A stretch of DNA of 36,943 nt from NCBI GenBank assembly GCA_037139415.1, contig JBAXGN010000065.1, forward strand, positions 1-36,943. The letters are read 5' to 3'. Under the pieces are notes generated by a model. The model was not told the origin of the DNA. It ran no database searches and saw only the letters and a list, made by a program, of their open reading frames with translations. A program made the translations under genes and the position numbers. This document shows positions 2,943 to 31,564 of the stretch, piece by piece. How positions within the stretch are numbered: position 1 is the first letter of the stretch; each line of letters begins with the position of its first letter. Origin of the DNA: Verrucomicrobiota bacterium (GTDB taxonomy: Bacteria; Verrucomicrobiota; Verrucomicrobiia; Limisphaerales; Fontisphaeraceae).

Positions 2943-2994
2943 CCAGAGCCCGAGCTGAAGCGAGCCAGGTCCGATACAGGACTCACTAACTGGA

Positions 2995-3067
2995 GAGCCG
3001 AATGCGGGAAATTCGCCTGTCCGGTTCGGAGGGAGGGGTGGCCATACGGGCCATCCCTACCCCTATC
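2995..3067 (+). ncRNA. Group II intron 3' end remnant (domains V and VI)
   Basis: Bases 2995-3027 match the catalytic domain V hairpin: GAGCCG pairs with CGGTTC, with GCG/CGC in the upper stem and a GGAA-containing loop. Bases 3028-3067 form a domain VI-like hairpin, with GGGAGGGGTGGCC facing GGCCATCCCTACCCC, and end in the ATC typical of bacterial class C-like introns. No reverse transcriptase coding sequence or upstream domains remain, so the intron is a dead 5'-truncated copy fused to the DUF4338 fragment. Confidence 0.7.
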
Positions 3068-4235: not shown

Positions 4236-4240
4236 GAGCG

Positions 4241-7054: not shown

Positions 7055-7244
7055 GAAATTCGATAAACCCGAGGGGGTGTCTTTCAGTTCGACCGAGGGC
7101 AACTGGAAAATGCGTTCGGCAACGGTCCACCGCCCTTCGCGCGACACCTGAAGCCAGCGCACGCGAAGGAGGTTCAGAATGGAGGAAACTTGCTTCATAA
7201 GTTGTAACACATGGGGTTTGAGAATTATCGCAGGCCGCAAGTCA
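7055..7244 (-). other. Intergenic gap with an open frame of uncertain origin
   Basis: 190 bp between the toroid gene and the beta-helix fusion gene. On the minus strand an open frame beginning MKQVSSILNLLRVRWLQV runs in frame into the start of the beta-helix gene. It could be the tail of a deleted gene. A purine-rich CTCC/GGAGG patch around 7177-7182 is the only ribosome-site-like sequence. I see no clear promoter or terminator. Confidence 0.3.
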
Positions 7245-9071
7245 TCATGGGACGCCATGGGGCCTAATCTGGTACACGATGCGGCGGGCAGGCGTTTCAG
7301 CCAGTGCAGCCTCCGCTTGTCCGTTGCGGTGGTTGAGACGCAGCCCGCTACGCTGCAACCGGGTTTCACCGGGCTCGAGCACCGTGAAACAAATTCCTTG
7401 CCCGCGCAGATGCAAGGTGGCGGTGTTTCCGTCCAGGATGACGTTCGTATTTTCCTCCCCGTCAAAGACCAGCATGGGCCAGGAGACGCGCAGCTTATCC
7501 GCCTTGCCGGAGAGGTCATTGGTAACGGTTACCCCGGCACGTTCGATCACGACTGTTTCGGCTATTCGCAACGCCTGGGAGTTGCTGCCATTGGGCGGAA
7601 CCACAAACTCAATCCGGAAGCTGGCACGAGCTGTTTGCTGCTGCAGAATGGTCAGCGCAGGCACAGCAGAGGTCATGGCTGCCAGGGATTGCCATCTCCC
7701 GGCGGCGTCCTGCCAGGCGGGCCCCAGCGACAGGCTGCTTTTTTCATTACCGGTTTTGACGATGCATCCATCCGAAGGACCCAGTTGGGGATGTCCCCCC
7801 TTGAGATGCACGCGCAATAACCCCGTGGGGTTGTAGATTTGATTCCCGCGCGTCATGTACTGCACGTAGTTCCCGCTGGCATTGGCCACCACCATGGAGA
7901 ATTCAGGCAGTGAAATCACAAACCCGCCCACATCGGCCGGCGCGGGCGCCTCGGCGATGGCATCGTCGGCAAAACGCCACGCGGCGCAGAGCATCGAACA
8001 GGCCAGCAGGTTATAATTGGCATGCACGGAATAACCTTCATAGCCATGGCGGGATTCGATGGGGTAACGGTTTTTAACAATGTACCCGCTGCCGTCCGGT
8101 CGGATCCACTGCCGGATGCTTTGCAGAGCAAGATGCGCGCCGCGCTTGAAGGCGCCCGCCTCCGGCAGTTTGCCGGCTTGGGCGTATCGGGCGGCGTAGA
8201 TTTCATACACTTTGGCCAACTCCGCCTCGTTCCAGATATGCTGCGCGCTGCGATAACCGGTCGGAAGCTCTCCGAATGGCGATTGAATCATGAGGCTGGT
8301 CCACGCGCCGCGCCAGCAGGCATCGCGGTAGAACTTGTACGCCTGCCCCTGATAGCCCAGGTGCAGCATGCCGGTGAGGAAGTAGCGGGAAAAGGCATCA
8401 TAGGCAAACGGAGCGCCATGCTCCAGGTAAAGTCCCAAAGGAGTGATATGCGGTTTTTGAATAGCCAGCGCCTGATCCACGTATTCCGATGAGCCCCACC
8501 CGCGCTGTGCGCGCAAAAATTCTCCGGCGGTGTGGACCAGCGTCCAGTTATTGTCTGCCTTGCCATAGGTGGCATAGGTGGTTTTGGGATTGAGCATGGC
8601 CAACTGTTTCCGCCAGGTTTCCAACCGGGCGGCGGGGGCAATTTTTTCAAATTCCTCCAGCGCCAGCATGGCCGGGTAGGTGTAAAAATCCGGATGCTGA
8701 TCCGGAAAAGCCTTCCGGCCTTTGGCCAAACTGTCCGCGCAAAAATCCATGGCCCGCATGCCGGATTCCAGGAGTTGCGGATCCCGGTCAAATCCGCTGG
8801 CAGCCAGGGTGGCCACGGCATGCGCATAACAGGGGGGGCTGAATTGCGTGCGGCCATCCACTGGATCAGGCAGATCGCCGTTGGCTTTCTGGCAGGGACG
8901 CAAAGCGCGCACTTGGCCGGCAACCACTTTCAAGTAATCCGCGCGGGTCAATCCGGTGGGAGTAAAATCCGCCACCCGTTTTTGGCTTTGGAGAACCTGG
9001 TTGATCTGCGGCTGGAGCGGGTGCTCCGTGGCGCTGATCAACGACGCGGCAATGACGGCGCCGAGCATCAT
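7245..9071 (-). CDS. Secreted protein of alpha/alpha-toroid type, unclassified polysaccharide-active candidate
   Basis: 608 residues with a short signal peptide (about 1-15). Residues about 30-370 are helix-rich with repeated aromatic patches (GAPFAYDAFSRYFLTGMLHL, GYEGYSVHANYNLLACSML), as in the (alpha/alpha)6 toroids of polysaccharide lyases and of GH88/105/154-type hydrolases. Residues about 375-600 are strand-rich and would form a C-terminal beta-sandwich, a two-domain layout shared with several lyase and glucuronidase families. I do not recognise the exact family. Its ATG overlaps the stop of the GH105 gene (ATGA), so the two are translationally coupled, and the product may make or trim the unsaturated oligosaccharides that GH105 uses. 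That role is inference. Confidence 0.65.
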   Translation of the reverse strand: MMLGAVIAASLISATEHPLQPQINQVLQSQKRVADFTPTGLTRADYLKVVAGQVRALRPCQKANGDLPDPVDGRTQFSPPCYAHAVATLAASGFDRDPQLLESGMRAMDFCADSLAKGRKAFPDQHPDFYTYPAMLALEEFEKIAPAARLETWRKQLAMLNPKTTYATYGKADNNWTLVHTAGEFLRAQRGWGSSEYVDQALAIQKPHITPLGLYLEHGAPFAYDAFSRYFLTGMLHLGYQGQAYKFYRDACWRGAWTSLMIQSPFGELPTGYRSAQHIWNEAELAKVYEIYAARYAQAGKLPEAGAFKRGAHLALQSIRQWIRPDGSGYIVKNRYPIESRHGYEGYSVHANYNLLACSMLCAAWRFADDAIAEAPAPADVGGFVISLPEFSMVVANASGNYVQYMTRGNQIYNPTGLLRVHLKGGHPQLGPSDGCIVKTGNEKSSLSLGPAWQDAAGRWQSLAAMTSAVPALTILQQQTARASFRIEFVVPPNGSNSQALRIAETVVIERAGVTVTNDLSGKADKLRVSWPMLVFDGEENTNVILDGNTATLHLRGQGICFTVLEPGETRLQRSGLRLNHRNGQAEAALAETPARRIVYQIRPHGVP

Positions 9072-10204
9072 TTTACCAGGCGGTAGATTTCACTACCGGC
9101 CAAGAGAAAAGTCCCGGTGACATATTCATGGGTCAGCTCCTGCTTGACCACCGCCGGACGGTCGCCCACGGGCTGGCCAAACTGCACCTGACCTTCGGCG
9201 CTGACCACACCCGCCAAGGCTTTCCAGGCTTTGCGCACCACCGGCTCGTAGGTGGCGCGGTCCAGCATGCCACGATTAATGCCCCAGGTCATGGCATAAC
9301 AAAAAAAGCCGGTGCCACTGCTTTCCGGCACCGGGACGTGATCCAGGTCGGCGAGGTTGGGCCTCCATAGTCCATCGGCCGGTTGGCATTTGGCAACGGC
9401 GGCGGCCATGGCCCGGTATTGCGCCAGGTATCCGGCATAGGCAGGGTCGCTTTCCGGCAAATATTCCAGCACCCGCACGATACCGCCCAGCACCCAGCCG
9501 TTGCCGCGCGACCAGAAAATCTTTTTGCCGGCCGGCGATTTTTGGCCGATGAAGCGGCGGTCACGATAATAAAGGGATTCCTCGCGGTCATATATCTCGG
9601 CGGTGACGTCGGTCCAAAACGCGTGCATATAATTGAGATACTGTTTATCCCCGGTTGCTTTGGCCAGCATGGCCAAGGTGCAGGCACCATACAGGGAGTC
9701 CGCATAGCGGCGCCCGCCTTCAAAGTACCAAACCTTGGCGCCGGCCGGAGAATTTGAGGCGGGGGTGTTGAGCCACTGAACGGCAGGCTCGATCATACCG
9801 GAGTCCTTCTTTTCGAGGTAGAGCTCCGTCCAGGTTTCGACGCAGAACAGGCGGTTGGCACCCTGCTTTTCCGTGCCAACCTGCCACTGGTGCTGTTTTC
9901 CCCATGCGATGGCCTGGTCCTGGAATCGCGGGTCGCGGGTGTTCTTCCAGGCGGACATGATGCCCGTGTACCAGGTGGCGCGTTCCCAATTGCGGTCGGA
10001 CGGCTTCATGACGGGATGGGCGGCCTGCCAGTCATTGGCTTTGTGCATCAGTTGGACAATCACTTCCGGACGGAACACCTCGTCCGCCGGGGTTGCGCTT
10101 CGGGCCGGGGCGCAGCAACAACCAGCCAGCCCGATGATGGTGACAAGGCGCCATGGTACAATCATGGCCGATTGCAGGAAAGACGAGTGGGGGTGAGTCT
10201 TCAT
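9068..10204 (-). CDS. GH105 unsaturated rhamnogalacturonyl/glycuronyl hydrolase, putative lipoprotein
   Basis: 378 residues of the GH88/GH105 (alpha/alpha)6-barrel group (YteR/YesR type). These enzymes hydrate and release the unsaturated uronic acid left by polysaccharide lyases at the non-reducing end of pectic oligosaccharides. Family motifs visible are FEGGRRYADSLYG with candidate catalytic D169, FWSRGNGWVLGGI at about 230-242, and ESSGTGFFCYAM near the C terminus. The N terminus has a long charged stretch, a hydrophobic segment and LAGC with Cys29, a fair lipobox, so the protein may be membrane-anchored. Met14 is an alternative start. The presence of a GH105 enzyme implies that a lyase acts upstream in the same pathway. 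It overlaps the toroid gene by 4 bp. Confidence 0.88.
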   Translation of the reverse strand: MKTHPHSSFLQSAMIVPWRLVTIIGLAGCCCAPARSATPADEVFRPEVIVQLMHKANDWQAAHPVMKPSDRNWERATWYTGIMSAWKNTRDPRFQDQAIAWGKQHQWQVGTEKQGANRLFCVETWTELYLEKKDSGMIEPAVQWLNTPASNSPAGAKVWYFEGGRRYADSLYGACTLAMLAKATGDKQYLNYMHAFWTDVTAEIYDREESLYYRDRRFIGQKSPAGKKIFWSRGNGWVLGGIVRVLEYLPESDPAYAGYLAQYRAMAAAVAKCQPADGLWRPNLADLDHVPVPESSGTGFFCYAMTWGINRGMLDRATYEPVVRKAWKALAGVVSAEGQVQFGQPVGDRPAVVKQELTHEYVTGTFLLAGSEIYRLVK

Positions 10205-10380: not shown

Positions 10381-10593
10381 TCAGGCCAAAGACTGTTTGA
10401 GGAAACCTTTGTCGTGGCCCTCCTTCAGGTAGTAAAGGCCGAGCGTGCGCCCGTTCAGGATAACCACCGCGTGAACGATCCGCGGGGCGGGCACACCCGC
10501 AGCCTGGAAGACTTCGCCGGACAGGAGTTCGTTCATGAATCGCGGATCCAGCGGCGAGAGCATCAGGGTGACGAGGATGGAGATATGTTTCAA
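10381..10593 (-). pseudogene. CotH kinase-family fragment
   Basis: A 70-residue open frame starting at TTG contains DPRFMNELLSGEVFQAAG, then VPAPR, and ends LNGRTLGLYYLKEGHDKGFL. This is the characteristic central segment of CotH spore-coat-kinase-like proteins, where intact relatives have several hundred residues. The N-terminal part and the catalytic C-terminal part are both missing. The TTG overlaps the stop of the upstream six-hairpin gene (TTGA), but a stop codon lies in the CotH frame immediately before, so the fragment was joined there by deletion. I read it as a relic and not a functional small protein. Confidence 0.65.
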
Positions 10594-12425
10594 GGCTTGT
10601 TCGCTTTCCAGTCATCTAGCACCGCGAGCAGGGCGTGGTAGTTGTCCACCAGCAAGCCCTCGTAGCCGTGGCCACCGCCGTTCCAATCACGCCAGTCGAG
10701 TGACCGGCCGGTAACATCGAAACCTTGGAACTTGCCTTGAGCATATCCGGCCAGCATGGGATGGAAGATGCGGCGGGCCTCTTCCACACGGCCAAGTTGA
10801 TAGAGCGCCTTGATGGTGTAATAGGCCCAGCAGCCGGTTGCGCCTCCATTTTCGTAAAACTGGAAACCGTCGCTGCCGTCGTCGAGGAGCGGTTCACCGG
10901 TGGCTTCGGGCTTGTGGTTCTCGTGGACGTAATCCCCCTTCTGCACCGGCACAAGGTTGCCCGGCAGGCCAATGCTGAAGTTGGTGTAGCCGACCTCCTG
11001 CATCTTCGCCAGCAGCCGGTCCATGACGCGGTTCGCGGTCGGATCGTCGAGCAGGCCGAACGTAACGGCCATGCCTTGCACATAGGTGAACCAGTAGTCG
11101 TGCAACTGGCCGTCGGCGCTCTTCCAGCCGGCGATTACGCCCGTCGCCGGATTCAGCAGGGTGAGCGCGTAGGCGGCGCGGAGCTTCGCGGCTTTCTCGC
11201 TGAAGAACCTGGCGTCGTTGTCGTGTTTGAGTTGGCGCGCCAGTTCGGCGAACATCGTGGCGCCCCGATAGGCGAGCGCGTTGGCGAAGGCGTCCTCGTG
11301 GCCGTAGTTGATGGTGTCCCACCAGTTTGCGGGGCGCCGATCGGTTTTGGGGCGGTCGCCGAAGTTGCCCGTGCCGGGGTATTCAATAAGGCCGTTACCG
11401 TTCTTATCGGAGGCAAACATTTCATGCCCCCAGGTGGCCAGTTTGTCGTAGTTGGCGCGCGCCCATTTTAAGTCGCCCGACCCGTTCACATAGTTGCACG
11501 CCGAGATGAGGAACGAGGGCAGCGTATCCAGCGACGTCAACGGCGTTTTCCACGCAATGAGGTCCGCCTCGCCGGGAGTGTAACCGTAGCCGATCTGCCC
11601 GTAACCCAGTGCGCCAGCCAGGTAGCGGTCGAGCGTCATGCGGATCAGATCGTTGGCGGTCAAGCCGTCGGCCAACGGCGGCGTGTGCCGCGCGAGATCC
11701 GAATACTCAAACAGCGTGAACGCGCAGGGATCGCTGGAGGCGTTGTTTGCGAGCATCTGCACCCGCGGATTGACCTGGAAGACGTTGAGCCAGTCGCGCC
11801 GGAAGCCATCGTAGAGCGGATTCTTCTCGATGCCCGCGAGGTTTGGATGAATCGTCACCACTTCGAGCCGGTATTCGACGCGCCGCTGCTTCGCCGTCGC
11901 CGCCGGAAAGGCGATGCGCACGAACGGAGGCTTCGCGAACCGGCGCGCGTCGTAATCGAGCTTGGCGTCGCGCGCGTTACCGGTGATGCGCAAGGTTCCC
12001 ATGTCCGGCAAATGCAGCACACAGGGCAGGCTCATCTGCCGCTCGCCCGGCTTCATCAGGCCGAGCAGTGTGGCGTGATTGGCCTTTTGATTGAAGGTGA
12101 GCATGAACGGCGGGGCTTGGACGCCGGACGCGTAATCCGAACGCAGGGTCAGCACCTTTTCGCTGCACGAGACATGCCAGACGGGGTTCCCGTTGAATTG
12201 GTAGGTCTGGCCGACGAGTTCGAGGCCCGCAATGGCATTGGTCTCCGCGAGCACCGGATTCTGGTCCAGCTTGCCTTGGCCCAACGAGTCCACGGCGAAT
12301 GCGCTGAACGCCGGGGTCGTGCGAGAGAGGCCGACGGCAAGGTGTTTGGATTGGAATTCGGCTTTGGCGGCGTGCAGCACAGCCAACGGCGCGAACAGCA
12401 GGGTGGTCAGATAAAAATATTTCAT
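10590..12425 (-). CDS. Secreted six-hairpin glycosidase-like protein
   Basis: 611 residues with a signal peptide (about 1-20, ending VLHAAK). A strand-rich N-terminal domain (about 25-230) precedes an (alpha/alpha)6 barrel (about 240-605), the arrangement of six-hairpin glycosidases such as GH63, GH78, GH37 or GH94-like enzymes. Motifs in the barrel are SDKNGNGLIEYPGTG, the NWWDTINYGHEDAFANALAY segment and YENGGATGCWAYYTIKALY; the acidic residues in these are candidates for catalysis. An alpha-L-rhamnosidase-like role would suit the pectin theme, but I cannot fix the family. It lies 21 bp after the SGNH gene and is probably in one transcript with it. Its signal-peptide DNA is the third copy of the shared cassette. 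Confidence 0.7.
   Translation of the reverse strand: MKYFYLTTLLFAPLAVLHAAKAEFQSKHLAVGLSRTTPAFSAFAVDSLGQGKLDQNPVLAETNAIAGLELVGQTYQFNGNPVWHVSCSEKVLTLRSDYASGVQAPPFMLTFNQKANHATLLGLMKPGERQMSLPCVLHLPDMGTLRITGNARDAKLDYDARRFAKPPFVRIAFPAATAKQRRVEYRLEVVTIHPNLAGIEKNPLYDGFRRDWLNVFQVNPRVQMLANNASSDPCAFTLFEYSDLARHTPPLADGLTANDLIRMTLDRYLAGALGYGQIGYGYTPGEADLIAWKTPLTSLDTLPSFLISACNYVNGSGDLKWARANYDKLATWGHEMFASDKNGNGLIEYPGTGNFGDRPKTDRRPANWWDTINYGHEDAFANALAYRGATMFAELARQLKHDNDARFFSEKAAKLRAAYALTLLNPATGVIAGWKSADGQLHDYWFTYVQGMAVTFGLLDDPTANRVMDRLLAKMQEVGYTNFSIGLPGNLVPVQKGDYVHENHKPEATGEPLLDDGSDGFQFYENGGATGCWAYYTIKALYQLGRVEEARRIFHPMLAGYAQGKFQGFDVTGRSLDWRDWNGGGHGYEGLLVDNYHALLAVLDDWKANKP
12366..12410 (-). repeat. Signal-peptide DNA cassette, copy C
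   Basis: Codons 6-20 of the six-hairpin gene. 38 of 45 bases match copy B at 6989-7036. Confidence 0.7.
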
Positions 12426-12446: not shown

Positions 12447-14303
12447 TTACAGTTTTTCGATTAGTTTGTCCACCAACAGCTTTAGTTTGGTGGCAAAGAC
12501 CTCGTAGCCGGCTGGGCCAAGATGCAGGTGCCCGTCGGAATACAGCGAGGTCTTCAGGGTGCCGTCGGCGTTGGTGAAATCACTCCACAGATCCAGAATA
12601 TGGACTTGGGGATCGCGGTCGAGTTTCAGCGCGTCGAGCGCGGTGTTGATCTCTCGCACTTTCGCACCGACTTCCTTGCTCGGGTCGAAGGCCGGGAGAA
12701 TTTTTACGAGGACGATCTGCGACTTGGGACAGCGCATTCGCAGGTTCTCAATGCACAGTTTGATACCATGGGCTGCCGATGCAGCGGGTGCACCGTTGGC
12801 AAAAACCAGCGGGGCGTTGTTCACGCCGATCATCAGCACGATGACCTTCGGCGACGCGCCATCGAGCGCGCCGTGGTCGAGCCGCCAGAGAATGCTCTCC
12901 ATGCGGTCGCCACCAATACCAAGGTTGACGGTCTTCTTGTCGCTAAAATGTTTTTGCCATGCAGCATTGAACGCCGCACCGTCCCAGCCGCCGCCCCAGC
13001 CTTGCGTGATGCTGTCGCCGAGAAGGGCCATATCGATGCCATCCTTCATCGCGCGCACCTTTTCGACGCACGCGGCGTGATGCGCAACCCATAGATTTTC
13101 CTCACCGTCCTTGCCCCAACGGGCTGCCGTCGGAGTAACGAACCACATCTCGGGCAGATGCTTCTGCACCTCGTGGCCGGGCTTGCGGAAGTACTCACCT
13201 TTGGCAACCCAATCCTTCTCCGCGTCCGTCAGTGGCCAGCCGGTGAGCTGCGGGTCCATCTTGCCTTCGTTGTACGGCGCATAGGGATAGATGAGGATCT
13301 TGCCATCGTTAACGATCTGTTTTGCCTGTGCAGGCTCTGCTTTAACTTGCGCCGGTTTGGCGGCCGGAGCGGGACTGGCTTCCGGAGCCGAAGCCGGATA
13401 AGTCCTGGGCACTGACTTGGGCACTTCTCTTCCAGCCAGGAAAGCCTCCAGCAGGGGCTTTAGTTTTTCCGCGTAGAGCCTATAGCCTCCGTCCTGCGAC
13501 AGGTGGATGTTGTCGGGGGTGAACAAGGCCTTCTGCAGCGTGCCATCGGCATTCACCATGTCGCCCCAAATATCCAGCACCCTGACCATGGGATCGGCTT
13601 CCAAATCCAACTTATCCAGCGTGCCGTTAACCAGCTTGATGTCCTCATAAAATCGGTTACCCGGTGCGTGCGCGGGCAACACCTTCACCACGATCACCGG
13701 GGCCTTGGAGAACTTCTCGCGCAGGTTGTCCACGCAAACTTTGATGCCTTTGGCGACCGGCTCGATGCCGGTCTCAGGCGTAAAGAACATGTTGTTGTTG
13801 CCGATGAGGAGCACACACAGTCGCGGCTCAAGACCTTCCACGCCGCCGTGGTCGAGGCGCCAAAGTACGTTTTGCGTTTTGTCGCCGCCGATGCCGAGGT
13901 TGACAATCTTCAGCTTGGGGAAGTGCTTTGCCCACGCAGCGCTCCACTGCATTGTGATGCTGTCACCCACGAGCAAAACATCTATGGGGCCTTTGCTGGC
14001 CTGCGCGACCTTGACCAGGTTCGCGTGGGTATCCAGCCAGCTCGTGCCGCCCCAGAACCCGGCCGAGGGCGTCACTGGCCACATTGCAGGCTTGTGTTGG
14101 TTGATATCGCGGCCAGGTCGGCGCTCGTACTCCGGAAGCTGAACATATTTTCGCTCCTCCTCGGTCAGCGGCCAGCCGGTCTTCTGTGGATCCATCTTCC
14201 CTTCGTTGTAAGGAGCGTAGGGATACTCCAGGGCCTTCATGGGCAGAACGGCGGCAAAAACCGCCAGCGCGAATAGTGCTTTCGTGAGGTCTGATCGTTT
14301 CAT
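12447..14303 (-). CDS. Secreted tandem SGNH/GDSL esterase (two catalytic domains)
   Basis: 618 residues with a signal peptide (about 1-24) and two copies of one SGNH hydrolase domain joined by an Ala/Pro-rich linker (about 300-330). Domain 1 (about 27-290) has GDSI with Ser115, block II NLGIGGD (135-141), GNNN (168-171) and D264-x-x-H267. Domain 2 (about 339-618) has GDSIT with Ser431, NLGIGGD (460-466), GVNN (493-496) and DGHLHLGPAGY at 590-600. Both begin with the same YPYAPYNEGKMDPQxTGWPL leader, which shows an internal duplication of the complete unit. The family resembles PAF-acetylhydrolase/rhamnogalacturonan acetylesterase-like enzymes, so it probably strips acetyl groups from a polysaccharide. 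In domain 2 the spacing between D590 and H594 is one residue longer than the usual DxxH. Confidence 0.85.
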   Translation of the reverse strand: MKRSDLTKALFALAVFAAVLPMKALEYPYAPYNEGKMDPQKTGWPLTEEERKYVQLPEYERRPGRDINQHKPAMWPVTPSAGFWGGTSWLDTHANLVKVAQASKGPIDVLLVGDSITMQWSAAWAKHFPKLKIVNLGIGGDKTQNVLWRLDHGGVEGLEPRLCVLLIGNNNMFFTPETGIEPVAKGIKVCVDNLREKFSKAPVIVVKVLPAHAPGNRFYEDIKLVNGTLDKLDLEADPMVRVLDIWGDMVNADGTLQKALFTPDNIHLSQDGGYRLYAEKLKPLLEAFLAGREVPKSVPRTYPASAPEASPAPAAKPAQVKAEPAQAKQIVNDGKILIYPYAPYNEGKMDPQLTGWPLTDAEKDWVAKGEYFRKPGHEVQKHLPEMWFVTPTAARWGKDGEENLWVAHHAACVEKVRAMKDGIDMALLGDSITQGWGGGWDGAAFNAAWQKHFSDKKTVNLGIGGDRMESILWRLDHGALDGASPKVIVLMIGVNNAPLVFANGAPAASAAHGIKLCIENLRMRCPKSQIVLVKILPAFDPSKEVGAKVREINTALDALKLDRDPQVHILDLWSDFTNADGTLKTSLYSDGHLHLGPAGYEVFATKLKLLVDKLIEKL

Positions 14304-14330: not shown

Positions 14331-15611
14331 TTACTTCGTGTTGGCGGCCAGGGTTTGAGTGATGCCTTGCAACGCCATACTGTTGGAGCGGATGCCTTCC
14401 CAGTTGAAGATGCAGACGTAGCGGCAGCGCTGATCGGCCAGGGTCTTGGTCAGCGCGCTTTGCCACGCGGTCGCGTCCTTCTTGCCTTGGAGCAACCATT
14501 CGGCCGCCGCCCAGTAGGGAGCGTCCGACCGAGCCAGATTTCGTTGTACGCCGACGTCTTTGCCGGGATCAGCCGCATGCTGGTAGAAGCTCCAGCCGGG
14601 GCAGGCATAACGGTTGACCGGCACATCGTAGATCAGTTCACCTGTCTTCCACCCCGCACCGTGGGCAAACAAGCGGTCGCGCGGCACCCCGGCCTGAGAG
14701 GCTTCGCGGCAGAGGTTTTCGAGATAGTGCCGGGAAACGTCGCGCAATTCGCTTTCAGTGGGGGCGCCGCTGGTACGGATACCGGAAGTTTTTAAAGCGG
14801 CATAGCCGATCTGGGCTACTCCCCGTGCCAGGACGTCGTCGGTCTTCAGGTGTCCCGGCGGATCCTCCGTGGCAGGTTTGGCTAACAGTGCATTGCCGTC
14901 GGGATAATGATATGCGTTAACGCCAATCGAAGTTTCATGTCCCAGCTTGACGCCAATGAAGAGGTGTTTCTTATTGACCGGCAATTGGGTGTACCAAGCC
15001 ATGACCATCGGGATCAACCGTCGAATCTCCGTCCCGCATGCTTCAGTGTAGCGTGAGCTGGCAAAGTTTGGTGGCGGCAATACGCGGATTTGGCGCCCCC
15101 AGTTGCGCCAGGCAATCTTGATGGCGTTATCGGGTGACCAACCGGTCCATTCCACGTTTTCGCGGTTAGCCGGGTTGTATCCGGGTTTGGCCGGATCCCA
15201 CCAGTTCCACAGATCGGGCCGGTCTTGCCACCAGTGTTCGGTGTCAATTTGGACGAGGATCGGCGTGCCCGTTTGTTCCGCCGACTTCAAGAACACTTCC
15301 AAGGCCTTCAGGGTGATTTCCGGCCGGGTGCGGAAACAGGAAAAAATGTAGCTGATCCCGGTTTGGCGGCGGGCCTCCGGCTGGTTTGGGAAATGAGTCA
15401 ACACCTCCTCGAACTGTTTGCGGCCAAGCGTCTCAGGTGTACCCTGATACATGCCCTGGCCGGGAGCGCGGCAAAACAGAATGTATTGAGTTGTTGGGCG
15501 GTTCTCAGGCCCCGCAGAGTGGATCTCCGCGGCAGGCGCCGCCAAGGCAAGGCCAACGATCTGACCCCAGAGCGCGACAGTCAAAAAAGTGAAATTACAC
15601 AATAATCTCAT
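14331..15611 (-). CDS. Secreted protein, possible TIM-barrel glycosidase, family not recognised
   Basis: 426 residues with a signal peptide (about 1-25, ending ALAAP). The mature part alternates strands and helices as in a TIM barrel, including TPILVQIDTEHWWQ, where a strand ends in acidic and aromatic residues, HLFIGVKLGHETS (a possible second acidic strand end) and CRYVCIFNWEGI near the C terminus. This pattern resembles retaining barrel glycosidases, but I cannot place it in a named family. It is the first gene of the minus-strand cluster and its start lies 97 bp from the divergent oxidoreductase gene, with a palindromic operator candidate in between. Confidence 0.65.
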   Translation of the reverse strand: MRLLCNFTFLTVALWGQIVGLALAAPAAEIHSAGPENRPTTQYILFCRAPGQGMYQGTPETLGRKQFEEVLTHFPNQPEARRQTGISYIFSCFRTRPEITLKALEVFLKSAEQTGTPILVQIDTEHWWQDRPDLWNWWDPAKPGYNPANRENVEWTGWSPDNAIKIAWRNWGRQIRVLPPPNFASSRYTEACGTEIRRLIPMVMAWYTQLPVNKKHLFIGVKLGHETSIGVNAYHYPDGNALLAKPATEDPPGHLKTDDVLARGVAQIGYAALKTSGIRTSGAPTESELRDVSRHYLENLCREASQAGVPRDRLFAHGAGWKTGELIYDVPVNRYACPGWSFYQHAADPGKDVGVQRNLARSDAPYWAAAEWLLQGKKDATAWQSALTKTLADQRCRYVCIFNWEGIRSNSMALQGITQTLAANTK

Positions 15612-15645
15612 GACGGCAGTCTGGCTGAACTTCCGGTGGGTGTCA

Positions 15646-15664
15646 TGTCACAGAATTCGTGACA
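15646..15664. promoter_or_regulatory. Operator candidate 1: TGTCAC-N7-GTGACA dyad in divergent promoter
   Basis: A perfect 6+6 inverted repeat with a 7-bp spacer between the divergently transcribed minus-strand cluster and the oxidoreductase gene. A TACAAT -10-like box lies at 15673-15678, which puts the dyad over the -35 position of the plus-strand promoter, as for an activator. The surrounding 38 bp align with the site at 19284-19302 (common AACTTCC, GTCATGTCACAGAA, GTGACA). The likely ligand is the LuxR-type regulator encoded at 21096-21758; this is inference. Confidence 0.6.
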
Positions 15665-15708
15665 CGGCTGAATACAATGCTATCGCAAAACGTCAGAACT
15701 TGCGCTTT

Positions 15709-17082
15709 ATGCAACATACCTTATTAAATGTTTCGCGCCGCGGTTTTCTCAAGGCATCAGCGCTGGGCATCAGTGCGGCCGCTTTCGGCGGGCCATTGGT
15801 GATGCGCGGCAGTGCCGCCTCGACGGCCGCCAACGGCAAGGTGAATCTCGCCGTGGTCGGTTGCGGCGGGCAGGGCTGTGGCGACATGGGCGGCCTGCTT
15901 TCCAACGGTGCTAATCTGGTCGCCCTGTGCGACCCGGATGCCGGGCAGATCGAAAAGGCAGGGGCTGCTGCAGCCAAGCGAGGTGGCAAGACAGCCAAGG
16001 TCTACGAGGATTATCGGAAGCTGCTGGATGACGCCGCGACCTTTGACGCTGTCTTGATCGCCACCCCAGACCACTGGCACGCTCCGCTGTGCAAGGCCTT
16101 CATGAAGGCCGGCAAACACATCTATTGTGAGAAGCCCCTCACGCACAGCATCGCCGAGGCACGTGAACTCCGCGAGTTGGCTCGCCATAGCAAGGTCGTG
16201 ACCCAAATGGGCAATCAGGGAAGTGCCGGTATTTCGCTGCGCCGCTCCGTCGAGATCATCAAGGCCGGCGCGCTCGGGCAGATCCGCGAAGTATACGAGT
16301 GGGGTATCCATAGCTTCGCCCGCGAAGGCAATGCCCAAGGCGAGGACACCATTCCCCCTGGCTTCAATTGGGACCTGTGGGTCGGTCCGTCAGGCATGCG
16401 TCCCTTCAAGAAGGACGTTTATCATCCCAAGAACTGGCGGGGTTGGTATGACTTCGGCAACGGCAGCCTAGCGGACTTCTGCTGCCACTCCATGAACCTG
16501 CCCGTGCGGGCACTGGACCTGGGCTATCCCGAGCGACTGGTGGTGAACGTCAACCCTCAAAACCCGTGGGAGCAGACGGCTGGCAAGGCAGCAGTGGAGT
16601 ACCATTTCCCGGCCCGCGGCAATCTCCCGCCGGTGGCATTGTATTGGCAGGGCGGAGGCAAGCCGCCCACCGATGTCATCAAGCCCGTCCTCGATCTGGA
16701 CCCGAGCAAGACGGGCCTCTTTATCCGGGGCGAAAAGGGCTGCATCTACACCGATCATTGGAATGACGGCGGCCTGATACGCCTCAACGGCGAATCCGAT
16801 CTTGTGAGCGTGCTGAACCATCCCGCCACCAAGCACATTCCCGCGAGCCTTCCGCGCACCAAGGGACACGGCAAGGAATGGCTTGACGCCTGCCGGGGCG
16901 AGGGACGCACCTTCTCCGACTTCGATACCGGCGGGAAGCTCACAGAGATCGGTCTGGCCGGTGTTTTAGCAATTCGCGCGGGCAAGAATCTGGAATGGGA
17001 TGGTGAGAAGATGGAAGCCAAGAACGCTCCCGAAGCGGCCCGCTTCGTTCATACTGAGTACCGGAAGAAATGGCTGGTCTGA
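15709..17082 (+). CDS. Tat-exported Gfo/Idh/MocA-family oxidoreductase
   Basis: 457 residues. I start at the ATG at 15709 because it places a twin-arginine signal (SRRGFLK at 9-15, hydrophobic stretch to about 35) at the N terminus; the frame is open further upstream but across the promoter. The Rossmann loop GCGGQG is at 51-56, the EKP motif of the family at 141-143 (from HIYCEKPLTH), and the C-terminal substrate domain follows from about 160. Members oxidise or epimerise sugars with a tightly bound NAD(P). Tat export of the folded, cofactor-loaded enzyme is common in Verrucomicrobiota and Planctomycetota. It leads the plus-strand arm and is followed after 29 bp by the ThuA gene, a frequent pairing in these phyla. 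Confidence 0.88.
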   Translation: MQHTLLNVSRRGFLKASALGISAAAFGGPLVMRGSAASTAANGKVNLAVVGCGGQGCGDMGGLLSNGANLVALCDPDAGQIEKAGAAAAKRGGKTAKVYEDYRKLLDDAATFDAVLIATPDHWHAPLCKAFMKAGKHIYCEKPLTHSIAEARELRELARHSKVVTQMGNQGSAGISLRRSVEIIKAGALGQIREVYEWGIHSFAREGNAQGEDTIPPGFNWDLWVGPSGMRPFKKDVYHPKNWRGWYDFGNGSLADFCCHSMNLPVRALDLGYPERLVVNVNPQNPWEQTAGKAAVEYHFPARGNLPPVALYWQGGGKPPTDVIKPVLDLDPSKTGLFIRGEKGCIYTDHWNDGGLIRLNGESDLVSVLNHPATKHIPASLPRTKGHGKEWLDACRGEGRTFSDFDTGGKLTEIGLAGVLAIRAGKNLEWDGEKMEAKNAPEAARFVHTEYRKKWLV

Positions 17083-17111
17083 CCGATTCCACTCTGTAGA
17101 GGAATTTCACA

Positions 17112-18023
17112 ATGAAACTGAGATCTTACCTGTTAGCCGGTCTGTTGGTCCTCGCGGCAGCTTCGACATTCGCTGCCGAAAAGCCCATCAGAGTCCTCAT
17201 CATCGGCGGTCAGAACAACCATGACTGGAAGACCACGACGCCCCTCATGAAAGGCGTCCTGGACAAGGCCGGCCATTTCCAGACGACCGTTGACAACACC
17301 CCGGAGAAGGACGCACCCCAGGCTGAATGGGACGCATGGAGCCCGAAGTTTCGCGAGTTCAACTGCGTCGTGCTCAACTACAACGACAATGGCATGAAGT
17401 GCCCCATGTGGTCCGAGCAGGTCAAGAAGGACTTTGTCGAATATGTCCGGGGCGGCGGCGGCGTCGTGGCGATCCATGCAGCCAATAACTCGTTTAGCGG
17501 CTGGAAAGAATACGAGCAGATGATCGGCCTGCTGTGGCGCTGGTGGGGCAACGGCTACAGCCTCTATGTCGATGATGACGGCAAGGTGGTCCGCGAGGAA
17601 CCTGGCCAGGGCCGCCAAATGGGCCACGGCGACTGGGCTGGGTGGTACGCCTGGACGATGACCGTCCGCGATACGGAGCATCCCATCACTCAAGGCATGC
17701 CTGTGCATTGGCTGCACCAAAAGGACGAGCTTTACCATGGCCAGCGTGGACCGGCCGAGAACGTCCATATCCTGCTCACCGCCTACTCGGAGCCGGGCGG
17801 CAAGCACAAGGGCACCGGTAAGAACGAGCCGATCGTCTGGTGGGTGCCCTACGGCAAAGGCCGCGTCGTCACCAACGTGATGGGCCACGACCTGAATGGC
17901 ATGAAGTGCGTCGGCTTCAAGCTGCTGCTCCTGCGGGCGTGCGAGTGGGCAGCCACGGGAAGATGCTCAATCCCCATCCCGCCAAACTTCCCCAACTCCG
18001 AGAAGACGAGCGTGGAACCGTAG
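17112..18023 (+). CDS. Secreted ThuA-domain protein
   Basis: 303 residues with a signal peptide (about 1-21). The rest matches the ThuA-like fold, a class I glutamine amidotransferase-like flavodoxin fold first noted in trehalose utilisation. The opening strand is IRVLIIGGQNNHDWK; GGGGVVAIHAANNSFSGW (about 114-131, His122) is in the position of the nucleophile-elbow region but has no cysteine. Near the C terminus is WWVPYGKGRVV. Biochemical function is poorly known; genetic context ties the family to sugar oxidation together with Gfo/Idh/MocA enzymes, such as 3-keto-sugar pathways. It is preceded by GAGGAATTTCACA, a good ribosome site, 29 bp after the oxidoreductase gene. Confidence 0.85.
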   Translation: MKLRSYLLAGLLVLAAASTFAAEKPIRVLIIGGQNNHDWKTTTPLMKGVLDKAGHFQTTVDNTPEKDAPQAEWDAWSPKFREFNCVVLNYNDNGMKCPMWSEQVKKDFVEYVRGGGGVVAIHAANNSFSGWKEYEQMIGLLWRWWGNGYSLYVDDDGKVVREEPGQGRQMGHGDWAGWYAWTMTVRDTEHPITQGMPVHWLHQKDELYHGQRGPAENVHILLTAYSEPGGKHKGTGKNEPIVWWVPYGKGRVVTNVMGHDLNGMKCVGFKLLLLRACEWAATGRCSIPIPPNFPNSEKTSVEP

Positions 18024-18075
18024 GGCCAGGGTGGCAAAGCAGCACGTTTCTTGATTCCAAACCCCGTTCATATCC

Positions 18076-19191
18076 ATGAAGATCTACAGAACTCCAAGAC
18101 TTGCCATCGTTCCTTGCATCGCCTTGCTGCTGGCCGCACTGACTGGGCTGCGTGCTGCCGAACTGGATCGATCCTCCACCAAGCAATCGGCGTTTCAGCC
18201 GGGCGAGGTCTGGCTCGACACCGCAGGCAAGCCCATCAACGCCCACGGAGGCGGGATGCTATTCCACGACGGCACTTACTACTGGTATGGCGAGAACAAG
18301 GACGGCCGAACCTGGCTGCCTGAATCCACGAAAGCGTGGGACGGGTATCGCGTCGATGTCACGGGCGTTCGCTGCTATTCGTCGCGCGACCTGTTCAACT
18401 GGCAGGACGAGGGCTTGGTGCTGAAGGCCGTGCCGGGTGATCCGTCCCTCGATCTGCATCCCTCGAAAGTCTGCGAGCGCCCCAAGGTCGTCTTCAATGC
18501 CCGCACCAGGAAGTTCGTCATGTGGATGCACATCGACAGCGAGGACTACCAGGCCGCGCGCGCGGGCGTGGCGGTTGCCGACCAGCCCACCGGGCCGTTC
18601 ACTTACCTGGAGAGCGTTCGCCCGGAGGGTCAGGACAGCCGGGACCAAACCCTGTTCCTCGACGAGGACGGCAAGGCGTACCGCGTCTATTCCTCCGAGA
18701 ACAACGACACCACATATATCTCGCTGTTGACGGACGATTACCTCAAGCACAGCGGCAAGTTCGCCCGCGTCTTCGAGAAACGACGCATGGAAGCTCAGGT
18801 CCTCTTCAAGCACGCCGGCAAATACTGGTTCATGGCCTCCGGATGCACGGGCTGGGACCCGAATCCAGCGCGGTCCGCCGTGGCGAACTCCATCTGGGGG
18901 CCGTGGACGGAACTGGGGAATCCCTGTCGCGGCCAGAATGCCGACCAGACCTTCGGTGGCCAAAGCACGTTTGTATTTCCAGTGGCTGGCAAGGAGAACG
19001 CATTCATCTTCATGGCCGACCGCTGGAACAAGACCAACCTCGTGGATTCGCGCTACCTTTGGCTGCCGCTCCAATGCCAGGCCAGCAAGCCTGTCGTGCC
19101 GTGGGTGCAGCGATGGGACCTGTCCATCTTCGCGCGCGGGACCGTTCCCCCTGAGCCGGCCCGGCCGACTCTACATTCGCGCCAAGAATAA
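18076..19191 (+). CDS. Secreted GH43 enzyme, exo-beta-1,3-galactanase-like
   Basis: 371 residues with a signal peptide (about 1-28). A five-bladed propeller carries the signature INAHGGGMLFHDGTYYWYGE (54-73), typical of the GH43_24/GH43_34 group (exo-beta-1,3-galactanases and relatives). Candidate general acid is E239 in RRMEAQVLF. Q296 in FGGQSTFV is in the place where characterised GH43_24 galactanases use a glutamine instead of a catalytic aspartate. The propeller ends naturally near WVQRWDLSIF (about residue 353). The last ~18 residues (from ARGTVPPEP) look like read-through into a foreign fragment in another frame, so the 3' end was altered by a deletion. Substrate is probably the galactan side chain of arabinogalactan or pectin. 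Confidence 0.82.
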   Translation: MKIYRTPRLAIVPCIALLLAALTGLRAAELDRSSTKQSAFQPGEVWLDTAGKPINAHGGGMLFHDGTYYWYGENKDGRTWLPESTKAWDGYRVDVTGVRCYSSRDLFNWQDEGLVLKAVPGDPSLDLHPSKVCERPKVVFNARTRKFVMWMHIDSEDYQAARAGVAVADQPTGPFTYLESVRPEGQDSRDQTLFLDEDGKAYRVYSSENNDTTYISLLTDDYLKHSGKFARVFEKRRMEAQVLFKHAGKYWFMASGCTGWDPNPARSAVANSIWGPWTELGNPCRGQNADQTFGGQSTFVFPVAGKENAFIFMADRWNKTNLVDSRYLWLPLQCQASKPVVPWVQRWDLSIFARGTVPPEPARPTLHSRQE

Positions 19192-19243
19192 GGTGCTGTG
19201 CTACGACATCAGGCAGATCGAAGCTCGGAAAGTCCATCAGTGA
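19151..19243 (+). pseudogene. C-terminal remnant of a PQQ-type beta-propeller protein
   Basis: In a frame different from the GH43 gene, 30 codons read LSRPGRLYIRAKNKVLCYDI and then stop. GRLYIRxxxxxLCYDL/I is the usual last blade of secreted PQQ-binding-like (BamB-type) propeller proteins. Only this tail survives, overlapping the end of the GH43 gene, which suggests that a deletion joined the two genes. Confidence 0.5.
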
Positions 19244-19283
19244 AACCAAGACCATGCTGGGGCCAACTTCCCGCTGGACGTCA

Positions 19284-19302
19284 TGTCACAGAAATAGTGA
19301 CA
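19284..19302. promoter_or_regulatory. Operator candidate 2: TGTCAC-N7-GTGACA dyad upstream of the sensor kinase
   Basis: Same 6+6 inverted repeat as at 15646-15664, here 72 bp before the chosen ATG of the kinase gene. The spacer differs in three of seven bases (AGAAATA against AGAATTC) while the arms are identical, which is the pattern expected of a conserved protein-binding site. AACTTCC lies at 19265-19271, as in site 1 but with the gap one base longer. No convincing -10 box was found downstream. Confidence 0.6.
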
Positions 19303-19374
19303 GGACCATGACGGTTGAACGTTGTCGGCTCCTCCGGAAGTTGGTACCCTCGGTGCCGCAAACGACGCGCTGTG

Positions 19375-21099
19375 ATGCGAAACGCACCTTACAGAACAAT
19401 GATGACTTCGGGCCTGCTGGCCTGCGGTCTCTTATTGTTCAGCCAGGGCGCTTCGGCTGACATCCGGATAACACAGATCGAGACCGATGGCCAAATGCGG
19501 GACCTTTCGGCGAGGGATAGCCGGAGTTCCGCGCCGCTACCCATCCACGCCACCGCCCGCTCAGTGCGCTTTCACTTCACGGAGGGAGACAGCAACGGCA
19601 AACCCACGGCGCGCCTGCGCTACAAGCTGGAAGGCTACGACGACACCTGGCAGGACCTCCCGATAAAGATGCGGGCAATCATCTACTTCCGGGACCGTCA
19701 AGGCCAGGTGGTGGGCAGCAGCGAGTTTTACCTGACTGGCGAAACGCCTGGGTGGCGGGGAAGCATCGAAACCTCGGATTTCTCAGCCCGGCGTGAAACC
19801 GCCACCGCGCCTGAACGGACCGCCTCGGCTCGAATCTCGTTTTTGTCCCATGGCGGCGACGCGGGCATGGGGGAGTTTGGCGTGGATGCCGTTCATGTCC
19901 TGGTCGAGCATGGGGCAGATAAACAACCTAAAGTTTTTGATTTGAGCATTACCAAGGGAACCGAGCTGTCGCATCCGCTCGGCTCCCCAGCCAATTGGAT
20001 TCGCGAAGGCTCACGCGCGGAGCTGGCCCAAGTGCTGACGCGGCCCACGCCCATCCCCCACCCCATCCTGGCCATCCACGACGATGATCCTTCCTTTTTT
20101 GGCAACTGGGCCACGAGCGCATTCATCCCGGTGGTACCGGGCGATCGTTTGACGCTGGAATGGCAGACCGCGCACAGCATCGGCGGCAGCGGTGCCGGGC
20201 AGGCCAATTATTCACGACTGAAACCTGGACGCTATTGGTTTCGCGTGGCCGCCGCCAAGGCGAATGGGGCATTGAGCGGTCAGGAAGTGTCGCTGCCCCT
20301 GATCGTGGTCGCCCCCCTGTATCAACGGTGGGAGTTCTGGTTGGTGATCGGAGCACTGGCGACAGCCGCGGCTGCCTGGATTGGCCGGCTGGCCGTCCAG
20401 CGAAGGATGCAGCGCCAGCTTGCCGCACTGGAACACCAGCAAGCCATGGAACGCGAACGGGCTCGCATCGCCCGTGATCTGCACGACAACATCGGCGCAG
20501 GGTTGACCGAGATCGCCATGCAAAGCGATTGGGTCCACAACGATCTCGCGCAAGGCCCGACGGCCGATACCCGGCTGCGCGTCGAGCGCATCCGTCAATC
20601 GGCGACTGAACTGGCGCGCAGCGTGGACGAGATTGTCTGGGCCATCAATCCTGCCAATGACACCGTGAAACGGTTCGTCAATTACCTGACCCAATGCACC
20701 GCGCAATTCCTGGACGCAGGCGGCCTGCGCGTGCGCTTCGACATCCCTCAGGAAATGCCGGGGACCGCCCTGGCAGGCAAAGTACGCCACTATCTGTTTC
20801 TGGCTGTCCGCGAGGCGGTGAACAACGCAGCCAAACATGCCCGGGCCGATTTAATCCGCCTGGAAGTCCGTGTCGAAAATTCCAGTCTGCGCATTGCTGT
20901 CGAGGATAACGGCTGCGGGTTCGCACCTGAACAGGCCACCGCCACTGGCACGCATGAAGGGCTGGATAACATGCGCCGGCGCATGGAAGACATCGGCGGC
21001 ACATTCAAAATCACCAGCCGCCCCGGCGAGGGTACCCGTGTCGAGTTCAGCGCGCCGTTGGCAGACAAAAACGCAGAGCCGACAAGGAACTCCCCATGA
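19375..21099 (+). CDS. Membrane sensor histidine kinase with split Y_Y_Y-type input domain
   Basis: 574 residues from the ATG at 19375. A TTG at 19315 would extend the frame but begins only 12 bp from the operator dyad, which leaves no room for a promoter. After a signal peptide (about 1-28), a segment like the start of a Y_Y_Y domain (RLRYKLEGYDDTWQDL, about 80-95) is followed by about 180 residues of strand-rich sequence, then the Y_Y_Y end (RLKPGRYWFRVAAA, about 281-294). A transmembrane helix lies at about 319-340. The HisKA_3 box ARDLHDNIGAGL contains the phosphoacceptor His370; the HATPase N box is NNAAKH (483-488) and the G1 box DNGCGF. It belongs to the NarX/DesK-like class that pairs with LuxR-type regulators. 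Probably it senses an oligosaccharide in the periplasm. It overlaps the regulator gene by 4 bp. Confidence 0.88.
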   Translation: MRNAPYRTMMTSGLLACGLLLFSQGASADIRITQIETDGQMRDLSARDSRSSAPLPIHATARSVRFHFTEGDSNGKPTARLRYKLEGYDDTWQDLPIKMRAIIYFRDRQGQVVGSSEFYLTGETPGWRGSIETSDFSARRETATAPERTASARISFLSHGGDAGMGEFGVDAVHVLVEHGADKQPKVFDLSITKGTELSHPLGSPANWIREGSRAELAQVLTRPTPIPHPILAIHDDDPSFFGNWATSAFIPVVPGDRLTLEWQTAHSIGGSGAGQANYSRLKPGRYWFRVAAAKANGALSGQEVSLPLIVVAPLYQRWEFWLVIGALATAAAAWIGRLAVQRRMQRQLAALEHQQAMERERARIARDLHDNIGAGLTEIAMQSDWVHNDLAQGPTADTRLRVERIRQSATELARSVDEIVWAINPANDTVKRFVNYLTQCTAQFLDAGGLRVRFDIPQEMPGTALAGKVRHYLFLAVREAVNNAAKHARADLIRLEVRVENSSLRIAVEDNGCGFAPEQATATGTHEGLDNMRRRMEDIGGTFKITSRPGEGTRVEFSAPLADKNAEPTRNSP

Positions 21100-21758
21100 T
21101 CAAAGTTGCCGTAGTCGAGGATGACGCGCGCATCCGGAAAGTGGTGACCGAGGTGCTCGCCAGCGCCAGGGACTGCCAATGCGTCGGGGCCTTTGCCGAC
21201 GGCGCCACGGCAATGACCAGCCTTCCGTCGCTCGCCCCGGATGTGATCCTCATGGATATCAACCTGCCGGACGTTAGCGGCGTGGAATGCGTCGCTCGAA
21301 TCTCCCCGCAACTGCCCGGCGCCGAGATCATCATGCTGACTGTCTATCAGGATCCTGAGACCATCTTTCGTGCGCTGGCTGCCGGAGCGCATGGCTACCT
21401 GGTCAAGCCGGTCATGCCCGGGAAACTGCTCGAAGCGATCCGGGAAATCCGGGCCGGTGGCGTGCCGATGAGTCCGGGCATTGCGCGCGAAGTCGTGGAT
21501 TTCTTCCGCCGTGAACCGAATCCACCGGCAGCCGGTGCGGCTCTGGGGGATGCCAGCCTGGGTCCGCGAGAGCACCAAGTGCTGAAATTCCTGGTGGACG
21601 GGCTAACCTATAAAGAGATTGCGGGCGAACTGGGCATCACCACCAACACCGTGGCGACCTACGTCCGGCGCATCTACGAGAAACTCCACGTGCGCAGCCG
21701 GCGCGAGATCATCGCCTACTACAAAAATGGTGGCGAAGAGCGAACAACCGGGAGTTGA
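21096..21758 (+). CDS. LuxR/NarL-family response regulator
   Basis: 220 residues: receiver domain (about 1-118) with acidic pocket E8/D9/D10, phosphoacceptor D54 in ILMDINLPD, T82 and K104; then a linker and a LuxR-type helix-turn-helix (about 155-209: LGPREHQVLKFLVDGLTYKE and TTNTVATYVRRIYEKL). The ATGA overlap with the kinase gene shows coupling, so this is the cognate partner. LuxR-type regulators bind as dimers to dyads of about 18-20 bp. The two TGTCAC-N7-GTGACA sites upstream of the kinase and in the CAZyme divergent promoter are the obvious targets. Confidence 0.92.
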   Translation: MIKVAVVEDDARIRKVVTEVLASARDCQCVGAFADGATAMTSLPSLAPDVILMDINLPDVSGVECVARISPQLPGAEIIMLTVYQDPETIFRALAAGAHGYLVKPVMPGKLLEAIREIRAGGVPMSPGIAREVVDFFRREPNPPAAGAALGDASLGPREHQVLKFLVDGLTYKEIAGELGITTNTVATYVRRIYEKLHVRSRREIIAYYKNGGEERTTGS

Positions 21759-23756: not shown

Positions 23757-23815
23757 TTTGGGCCGAAGCGCGAAATCCGAAGGAAGGCCGAAGGGCGAAA
23801 GCGGAATTGTTATGT

Positions 23816-23885
23816 TTTTGTGATGAAAACGATTTTTTATCACAAAATGTTATAAAATTGTGATGAAATGAAATTTTTATCACAA
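23816..23885. repeat. Array of four TTGTGAT/ATCACAA elements in alternating orientation
   Basis: Within 70 bp the motif occurs as TTTTGTGAT (23816-23824), ATCACAAAA (23839-23847), TTGTGAT (23858-23864) and ATCACAA (23879-23885). Each adjacent pair can form a hairpin or a dyad. The half-sites resemble those of CRP/FNR-type regulators, but the spacing (12-16 bp) is wrong for them. It could be an operator array or two copies of a small hairpin repeat. Confidence 0.55.
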
Positions 23886-24499
23886 GAGTATAAATCCGAA
23901 GACGGAACCCGGAAAACTTTTGCAGAGAAATGAAGACAGGATGGGCAGGATGAACAGGATGGAACACGGACGAAGGCCGAACATGGCAAAAATTATGACC
24001 AGAAGGTGCCAAGTCCGAAGGACGAAGCCGACTTTTGCAGAAAAATTTATTGGAAAAAAAATGGCAGGTGAAAGATTGCCGAGCAGACGATAGAAGCTTG
24101 GAGTTAGAAGCCAGCATACGCAACGCCGTCGCACACGAATCAAACCGAAGATGATTCGCGAGGGGTCGCGGCATTGGCGGGCAGATAATACGCATGTCAT
24201 TCATGGGCGTCATGGTAGCAGGGTCTGCGCAAAGGCGGTTGCCGCCGGGAGGGAAAAATGAAAAGGACAAAAGGACCAGATTGTATATAAGTAATTCTTA
24301 AAAACAACCAATAGTATAGTTCGTTCTCTGCTTGACATTAAGCGTTGAATCCGCTTCTCTGTCGCCATGTTGAGCCAATCCAGAGGCCAGTTTCCAGGGG
24401 CCATTTGCCATGGTATTCGCTGCGGGGATCGCGGCAGGATTTTTACTTGGATGCTGCGGCATGGCATAATTTGTCGGGATCAATTCAAAAGGCGGTATA

Positions 24500-31262: not shown

Positions 31263-31564
31263 TACCATTTTCATCATGCAATTGCACTATTACCAATCAG
31301 CGAGTGGTTGTGTAATTAAAGGTATGCCGACTGGGAAGTCGGCGACACAGCAGGTTTGGAAACCTGCGCTACGATGACAAGGCATAAGCCTGAACGGTTT
31401 GAATGATGCAGTTACAAACTGGAAATGGTATAAGCCGCGCGGGCTGGCCTATCACGCTGAAGTTTTCAGCGTAACAACACTGCCCCAACCTCGTTAGGCG
31501 AATACTGCCCGCCTCGCCCAGTGGCTGGTGATTCCCCAGCGAACAAGTGCTTGGACACCCTTGG
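31263..31564. other. Intergenic region with two verrucomicrobial-type hairpin repeats
   Basis: Convergent spacer after the BatD-BatE gene. Two perfect hairpins stand side by side: GCCGACT-GGGA-AGTCGGC (31326-31343) and GCAGGTTT-GG-AAACCTGC (31350-31367). The pair is a recurring intergenic repeat in related genomes, to my knowledge; it may serve as a bidirectional terminator here, although it lacks T tracts. No gene is visible in the rest. Confidence 0.55.
31326..31367. repeat. Double hairpin intergenic repeat
   Basis: A 7-bp stem with GGGA loop and an 8-bp stem with GG loop, separated by 6 bases. Both stems are perfect. Confidence 0.75.

Follow-up and report, generated by a model that had tools for sequence, protein, structure and literature searches.

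The question raised by this locus is whether two copies of the inverted repeat TGTCAC-N7-GTGACA are the operator through which a two-component system (TCS) controls itself and a neighbouring cluster of genes for carbohydrate-active enzymes (CAZymes). Both copies lie in the window, by which we mean the whole stretch of 36,943 nucleotides that was analysed, contig JBAXGN010000065.1 from the genome of a Verrucomicrobiota bacterium. From the sequence comparisons we judge, with a probability of about 0.8, that the dyad serves as operator for the response regulator of LuxR/NarL type whose gene lies downstream of the second copy, in a local circuit that would probably activate the CAZyme operon and the regulator's own operon.

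The two dyads read TGTCAC-AGAATTC-GTGACA (site 1), between the leftward operon that begins with the gene Hyp426 and a rightward gene for a Gfo/Idh oxidoreductase, and TGTCAC-AGAAATA-GTGACA (site 2), upstream of the sensor kinase gene. The copies with identical arms that the original prediction had reported were confirmed to the base. It had also described the spacers as different, but they are largely alike, with five of seven bases identical and only two positions differing, and the block common to both sites is GTCATGTCACAGAA.T.GTGACA. At site 1 the left arm is extended leftward by GTCA (15642-15645) and reads GTCATGTCAC; site 2 has the same extension at 19280-19283. Repetition of a dyad within the window is not rare, as at least one repeated dyad (6-bp arms, gaps of 4-10) occurs in 25% of Markov-simulated windows with the same dinucleotide make-up. 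The case for selection therefore rests on comparative data, and the idea that the repeat is the signature of a selected protein-binding site holds by its conservation in relatives, not from the window alone.

This conservation is extensive. Close orthologs of the kinase are present in four other genomes (80% in locus L050, 75% in L051, 60% in L087 of genome G026 and 57% in L052), and a dyad is found upstream of the kinase gene in all five loci, the window included. In L050 and L051 the TGTCAC dyad is perfect and stands 89 bp ahead of the kinase start, the dyad of L052 lies inside a 43-bp perfect palindrome, and that of L087 reads TGTCGC-AAAATTT-GCGACA, with the same base altered in both arms. 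The kinase dyad is shared with a divergent gene, which is Hyp426 in L050 (ortholog 87%) and a GDSL esterase gene in L051 and L087. Further dyads occur at target genes. L050 has a second one directly before its GDSL gene, and G026 has a second one, TGTCGC-N7-GCGACA, on a different contig (C72), directly before the ortholog (77%) of the window gene at 10590-12425. Target genes thus keep the dyad even when they are scattered, and since both G026 dyads carry the same arm change, the two have changed together. The same operator-like sequence is therefore found at the regulator's own promoter and at its presumed targets across relatives, as would be the case in an autoregulated local regulon, and the conservation at orthologous promoters that had been proposed as a test is seen at kinase promoters and target genes alike.

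The protein that would bind the dyad is suggested by its neighbourhood and by its recognition helix. The kinase and regulator have the features of a classical TCS, a HisKA_3/HATPase_c kinase with a regulator in the same operon; their genes overlap by 4 bp (21096-21099) and are adjacent in five of five orthologous loci. The regulator matches the Pfam domains Response_reg (5.9e-26) and GerE (6.5e-17) and can be aligned from end to end with the structurally known proteins NarL, VraR and DevR, and we located the recognition helix by alignment with NarL. The helix TVATYVRR (TVATYVRRIYEKLHV) is found in all five dyad loci, while the 46 further kinase/LuxR loci in which the helix could be read contain neither this helix nor the dyad. 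With a cut at 300 bp upstream the dyad loci number four, as the L052 dyad falls outside it. A paralog in the window's own genome (contig C126, locus L018), which belongs to the same clade (kinase 58%, regulator 66%), has the helix TVNTYIQR and at the equivalent position only a diverged TGTCGT-TAAATTA-GCTACA (TGTCGTTAAATTAGCTACA), before a predicted promoter of like layout, TTGTGG-N17-TATGCT. Of the five loci whose regulator has the helix T[VI]ATYIRR, four (L029, L098, L134 and L136) carry an operator upstream of the kinase that is akin to the dyad but not the same, TCATGTCRTC-N6-GASGACA; among them is L029, the kinase of which belongs to a different branch. The co-variation of helix and dyad therefore indicates the adjacent LuxR protein as the binder. 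We propose that the kinase would sense a signal, probably a sugar, outside the cytoplasm, that the regulator would then be phosphorylated, and that a dimer of it would bind TGTCAC-N7-GTGACA with one recognition helix in each TGTCAC arm.

The position of the dyad relative to predicted promoters suggests the direction of control. In front of the kinase gene of the window, of L050, L051 and L087 and of the paralog on C126, TTGT[CG]G-N17-TA.... begins at a distance of 20-22 bp downstream of the dyad, and the dyad centre lies at -64 to -66. On the target side, five of seven cases (the window, both sites of L050, L051 and a relic in locus L100 described below) show a -10-like CAGACT, CATACT or CACAAT at precisely 22 bp from the dyad, with the dyad centre near -44. 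Transcription in the window is accordingly predicted to start near 19357 on the + strand and near 15611 on the - strand. The offset between the two sides, about 21 bp, corresponds to two helical turns and so to the same face of the DNA. We infer from these predicted promoters that the dyad positions suit an activator, which would probably act on the leftward CAZyme operon from site 1, centred at about -44, and on the kinase-regulator operon from site 2, centred at about -65. A TACAAT at 15673-15678, which starts 9 bp after site 1, had been described as lying at activator distance. This does not hold: the dyad centre would come to lie near -30 and cover the -35 region, an unusual place for an activator, and the TACAAT lies in the non-conserved flank.

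The same geometry bears on the alternative that the regulator binds the dyad as a repressor and is released when sugar is sensed. Site 1 stands only 9 bp before this TACAAT of the rightward Gfo/Idh gene, and some members of the T[VI]ATYIRR subgroup (L098 and L134) seem to have their related operator immediately behind a promoter-like TTGACT...TAT, an arrangement that would suit repression. At both conserved promoters, however, the dyad is upstream of the -35 element or abuts it, at the fixed positions -44 and -65 and outside the zone from -10 to +20, and the target-side promoters have poor -35 elements, as would be expected under activation. We consider repression unlikely.

A binding site of this one regulator should be specific to its regulon, and this is what we observe. 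A whole-genome search of the window's genome (G000; 7.9 Mb in 378 contigs, 98% complete) returned only two perfect copies of TGTCAC-N7-GTGACA, sites 1 and 2, and a random scatter of the dyad over the genome, which the original prediction had named as a check, is ruled out. Scanning the same genome with up to two mismatches gave 202 sites against 192 in the reversed control, which is no excess, and further degenerate scans with two to three mismatches gave 24-26 against 16, which is little. For this reason we do not claim weaker members of the regulon. Two one-mismatch sites were rejected: one on contig C11, which seems to be another palindrome (TTTCACACAAATTGTGA-like) with copies in several contigs, and one at window position 2626, which falls in DNA repeated elsewhere. 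The latter belongs to a remnant of a repeated element (2300-3066) that matches other contigs and includes an Rfam group II intron match at 2993-3066. Dispersed repeats are also present at 31256-31433 and 23805-24062, with copies elsewhere in the genome at 92% and 70% identity.

Outside this genome, we searched 320 genomes of the order without mismatch for a degenerate pattern that fits all known sites, TGTCRCARWRWTNGYGACA. There were six matches in four genomes (two in the window, two in L050, one in L051 and one in genome G572), against two matches in the reversed control. As the pattern was derived from the known sites, these match by construction, and the scan is informative for its lack of further matches: the pattern is missing from every scanned genome without a trace of this regulon. 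The G572 match (contig C75, L100 66-475) lies directly before a truncated ortholog of the GDSL gene (70% over 81 residues), which is cut to about 80-90 codons beside a tRNA-Gly gene, with the dyad and a -10-like element intact in front. An orthologous regulator was not found in G572, where the best LuxR protein reaches 48%, and because of this we read the site as what looks like a relic of the regulon. A class-wide scan with GTCATGTCAC-N7-GTGACA gave matches without mismatch in the window's own genome only, together with scattered one-mismatch matches. Sites of the form GACATGTCACYTRWTARGTGACA in three genomes of family f33 (L056, L057 and L058) were set aside, as their neighbours are unrelated to this TCS. 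The one in L057 stands before a Gfo/Idh gene, with another copy like it close by; it is perhaps a site of another regulator.

Dyads of this general type serve several families of transcription factors, and a global regulator, such as one of CRP/FNR or GntR type, might bind here with the TCS close by only incidentally. Such a regulator would have many sites, yet there are two copies in 7.9 Mb and both are here, the exact matches in the 320 genomes are confined to this regulon, and genomes without the TCS are also without the dyad, with the one relic excepted. This explanation is very improbable. That the dyad is an RNA hairpin, a terminator or the end of a mobile element, as the palindrome around the L052 dyad might suggest, is hardly credible, since a T-run is missing, transcription is predicted to start downstream of the dyad on both sides, both arms co-changed at both G026 sites, and none of the five genomes has the dyad as a dispersed repeat.

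Why the window has two dyads close together can be explained by its history. Compared with the dyad that L050 has between Hyp426 and the kinase gene, site 1 is homologous in its left flank (left against left, score 33) but unrelated in its right flank, and site 2 is homologous in its right flank (right against right, score 26). Because the homologies to L050 are split between the two sites in this way, a block with the Gfo/Idh, ThuA and GH43 genes was probably inserted into an ancestral region of Hyp426, dyad and kinase, and the dyad was duplicated. In the ancestral state one dyad would have served both divergent promoters, as it may still do in L050, L051 and L087. The left flanks of sites 1 and 2 are still alike, with a local score of 13 that is reached by 0.2% of shuffles; the AACTTCC shared by the two sites, to which attention had been drawn, is real but is a remnant of the duplicated flank. 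Between the GH43 stop and site 2 (19140-19260) there is a short reading frame (LYIRAKNKVLCYDIRQ) that looks like the 3'-terminal part of a further protein-coding gene, which would agree with a rearrangement at this place. It is possible that site 1 also controls the inserted block, although no conserved promoter supports it. Of the autoregulated control of the whole locus that had been proposed, the part concerning the leftward CAZyme cluster and the TCS is supported, and the part concerning the rightward Gfo/Idh, ThuA and GH43 genes is not. Chance repetition followed by local duplication, with the second site as a functionless copy of the first, would fit the frequency of repeated dyads in simulated windows and the similar left flanks, but can be practically discarded: the dyad is kept where the kinases are only 57-80% identical and most flanks are not, it changed symmetrically in G026, and each copy in the window retains one conserved promoter half.

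Besides the promoter-like sequences of L098 and L134, there are further points that count against the dyad being the operator of this regulator in an activating circuit. The five dyad loci and the paralog form one clade, and the co-variation could have arisen by descent alone, which reduces its statistical weight. L135, with the helix TVATYIRR, is without a recognisable operator. The dyad of L052 is 334 bp from the kinase start. And in G572 a dyad persists although an orthologous regulator is missing, which we explain by its being a relic.

The genes around the dyads are listed in the following table. Judged from these genes, the substrate may be a plant polysaccharide of the pectin or arabinan type. 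The product of the Gfo/Idh gene resembles glycoside 3-dehydrogenases, below the cut-off of that model. The extracytoplasmic region of the kinase is uncharacterised, with a weak Y_Y_Y match below the cut-off, and an AlphaFold model of it has a mean predicted local distance difference test score of 35.6 and was used for no claim.

Features of the window that are discussed in the text (GH, glycoside hydrolase family)
Feature	Position	Strand	Remark
Site 1	15646-15664		left half orthologous to the region of L050 where the dyad separates Hyp426 from the kinase gene
Site 2	19284-19302		position matches the dyads of L050, L051 and L087
Predicted -10-like element CAGACT of the Hyp426 operon	15618-15623	-	exactly 22 bp from the dyad
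Predicted kinase promoter TTGTCG-N17-TACCCT	19322-19350	+	begins 20 bp after site 2
Sensor histidine kinase	19372-21099	+	HisKA_3 and HATPase_c
NarL/LuxR-type response regulator	21096-21758	+	predicted dyad-binding protein, recognition helix TVATYVRRIYEKLHV
Hyp426, conserved protein of unknown family	14331-15611	-	first gene of the leftward operon, probable signal peptide
Double GDSL/SGNH esterase	12447-14303	-	orthologs directly behind the dyad in L050, L051 and L087, truncated relic in L100
Six-hairpin glycosidase	10590-12425	-	Bac_rhamnosid6H match, 1.5e-09
Rest of leftward cluster	3111-10204	-	operon membership inferred from orientation and spacing
GH88/105-like hydrolase	9068-10204	-	leftward cluster
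608-aa protein of unknown family	7245-9071	-	leftward cluster, open reading frame
Beta-helix and GH43 protein	4241-7054	-	leftward cluster
GH99-like protein	3111-4235	-	leftward cluster
Gfo/Idh oxidoreductase, ThuA and GH43 genes	15709-19191	+	between sites 1 and 2

The comparison of kinase/LuxR loci leads to a wider hypothesis. Other subgroups have TGTCGG-N8-CCGACA or ATCCCC-GAAA-GGGGAT before the kinase gene in part of their members. The latter motif or one like it is seen in L026, L028, L032, L033, L039 and L139, where the helix is TVRTYVKNIC or similar, and several other members are without it. We suggest tentatively, with rather less than even confidence, that Verrucomicrobiota possess a large family of kinase/LuxR pairs, some of them beside carbohydrate-degradation genes, in which every subfamily would have, beside its kinase gene, a private operator that varies with the recognition helix (TGTCAC-N7-GTGACA, TGTCRTC-N6-GASGACA, TGTCGG-N8-CCGACA and ATCCCC-GAAA-GGGGAT). 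The kinase/LuxR pair on C126 also seems, by eye, to stand among carbohydrate-degradation genes, such as a polygalacturonase-like reading frame at L018 14432-16027, and from these surroundings each carbohydrate cluster may have its own TCS. If true, the private-operator family would be a phylum-level counterpart of the logic by which hybrid two-component systems (HTCS) control polysaccharide utilisation loci (PULs) in Bacteroides, and would offer a readable code from helix to operator. Verrucomicrobiota are important degraders of polysaccharides in water and soil, and little is known about the regulation of their carbohydrate clusters. In the present case the sequence predicts a regulator along with its operator and a set of target genes, and does so with genome-wide specificity, which makes the circuit directly testable, and the approach offers a route to assign operators to related kinase/LuxR pairs.

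Our searches of the papers available to us found no described operator for a verrucomicrobial LuxR/CAZyme two-component system, but similar arrangements are known elsewhere. The response regulator UvrY/GacA/SirA recognises an 18-nt inverted repeat, TGTAAG-N6-CTTACA (PMC4682653). Both systems involve a NarL-family protein, an inverted repeat with outer TGT...ACA and very few strong targets per genome, whereas the arms described here are TGTCAC or TGTCGC in a repeat of 19 bp, the predicted positions are -44 and -65 instead of far upstream as at csrB/csrC, and the targets are the neighbouring CAZyme cluster and the own operon instead of regulatory RNAs (PMC4682653). The regulator also misses the NCBIfam equivalog cut-offs for UvrY/SirA/GacA (100.5 of 280 bits) and NarL (123.4 of 250 bits). 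ComA of Bacillus subtilis is likewise a NarL-family dimer that binds an inverted repeat of hexamers upstream of its target promoters, but its hexamer and spacer are others, and the additional direct-repeat sites of ComA targets are not seen here (PMC4797271). The HTCS of Bacteroides PULs are similar in providing a dedicated sensor-regulator for polysaccharide genes (PMC11253607), with a Y_Y_Y-like sensor stretch to which the match here is weak; they differ in that they unite sensor, kinase and DNA-binding regulator in a single polypeptide, whereas kinase and regulator are two proteins here, with a LuxR/GerE output and in the phylum Verrucomicrobiota. The type of circuit is ordinary, and the example is new for these uncultured bacteria.

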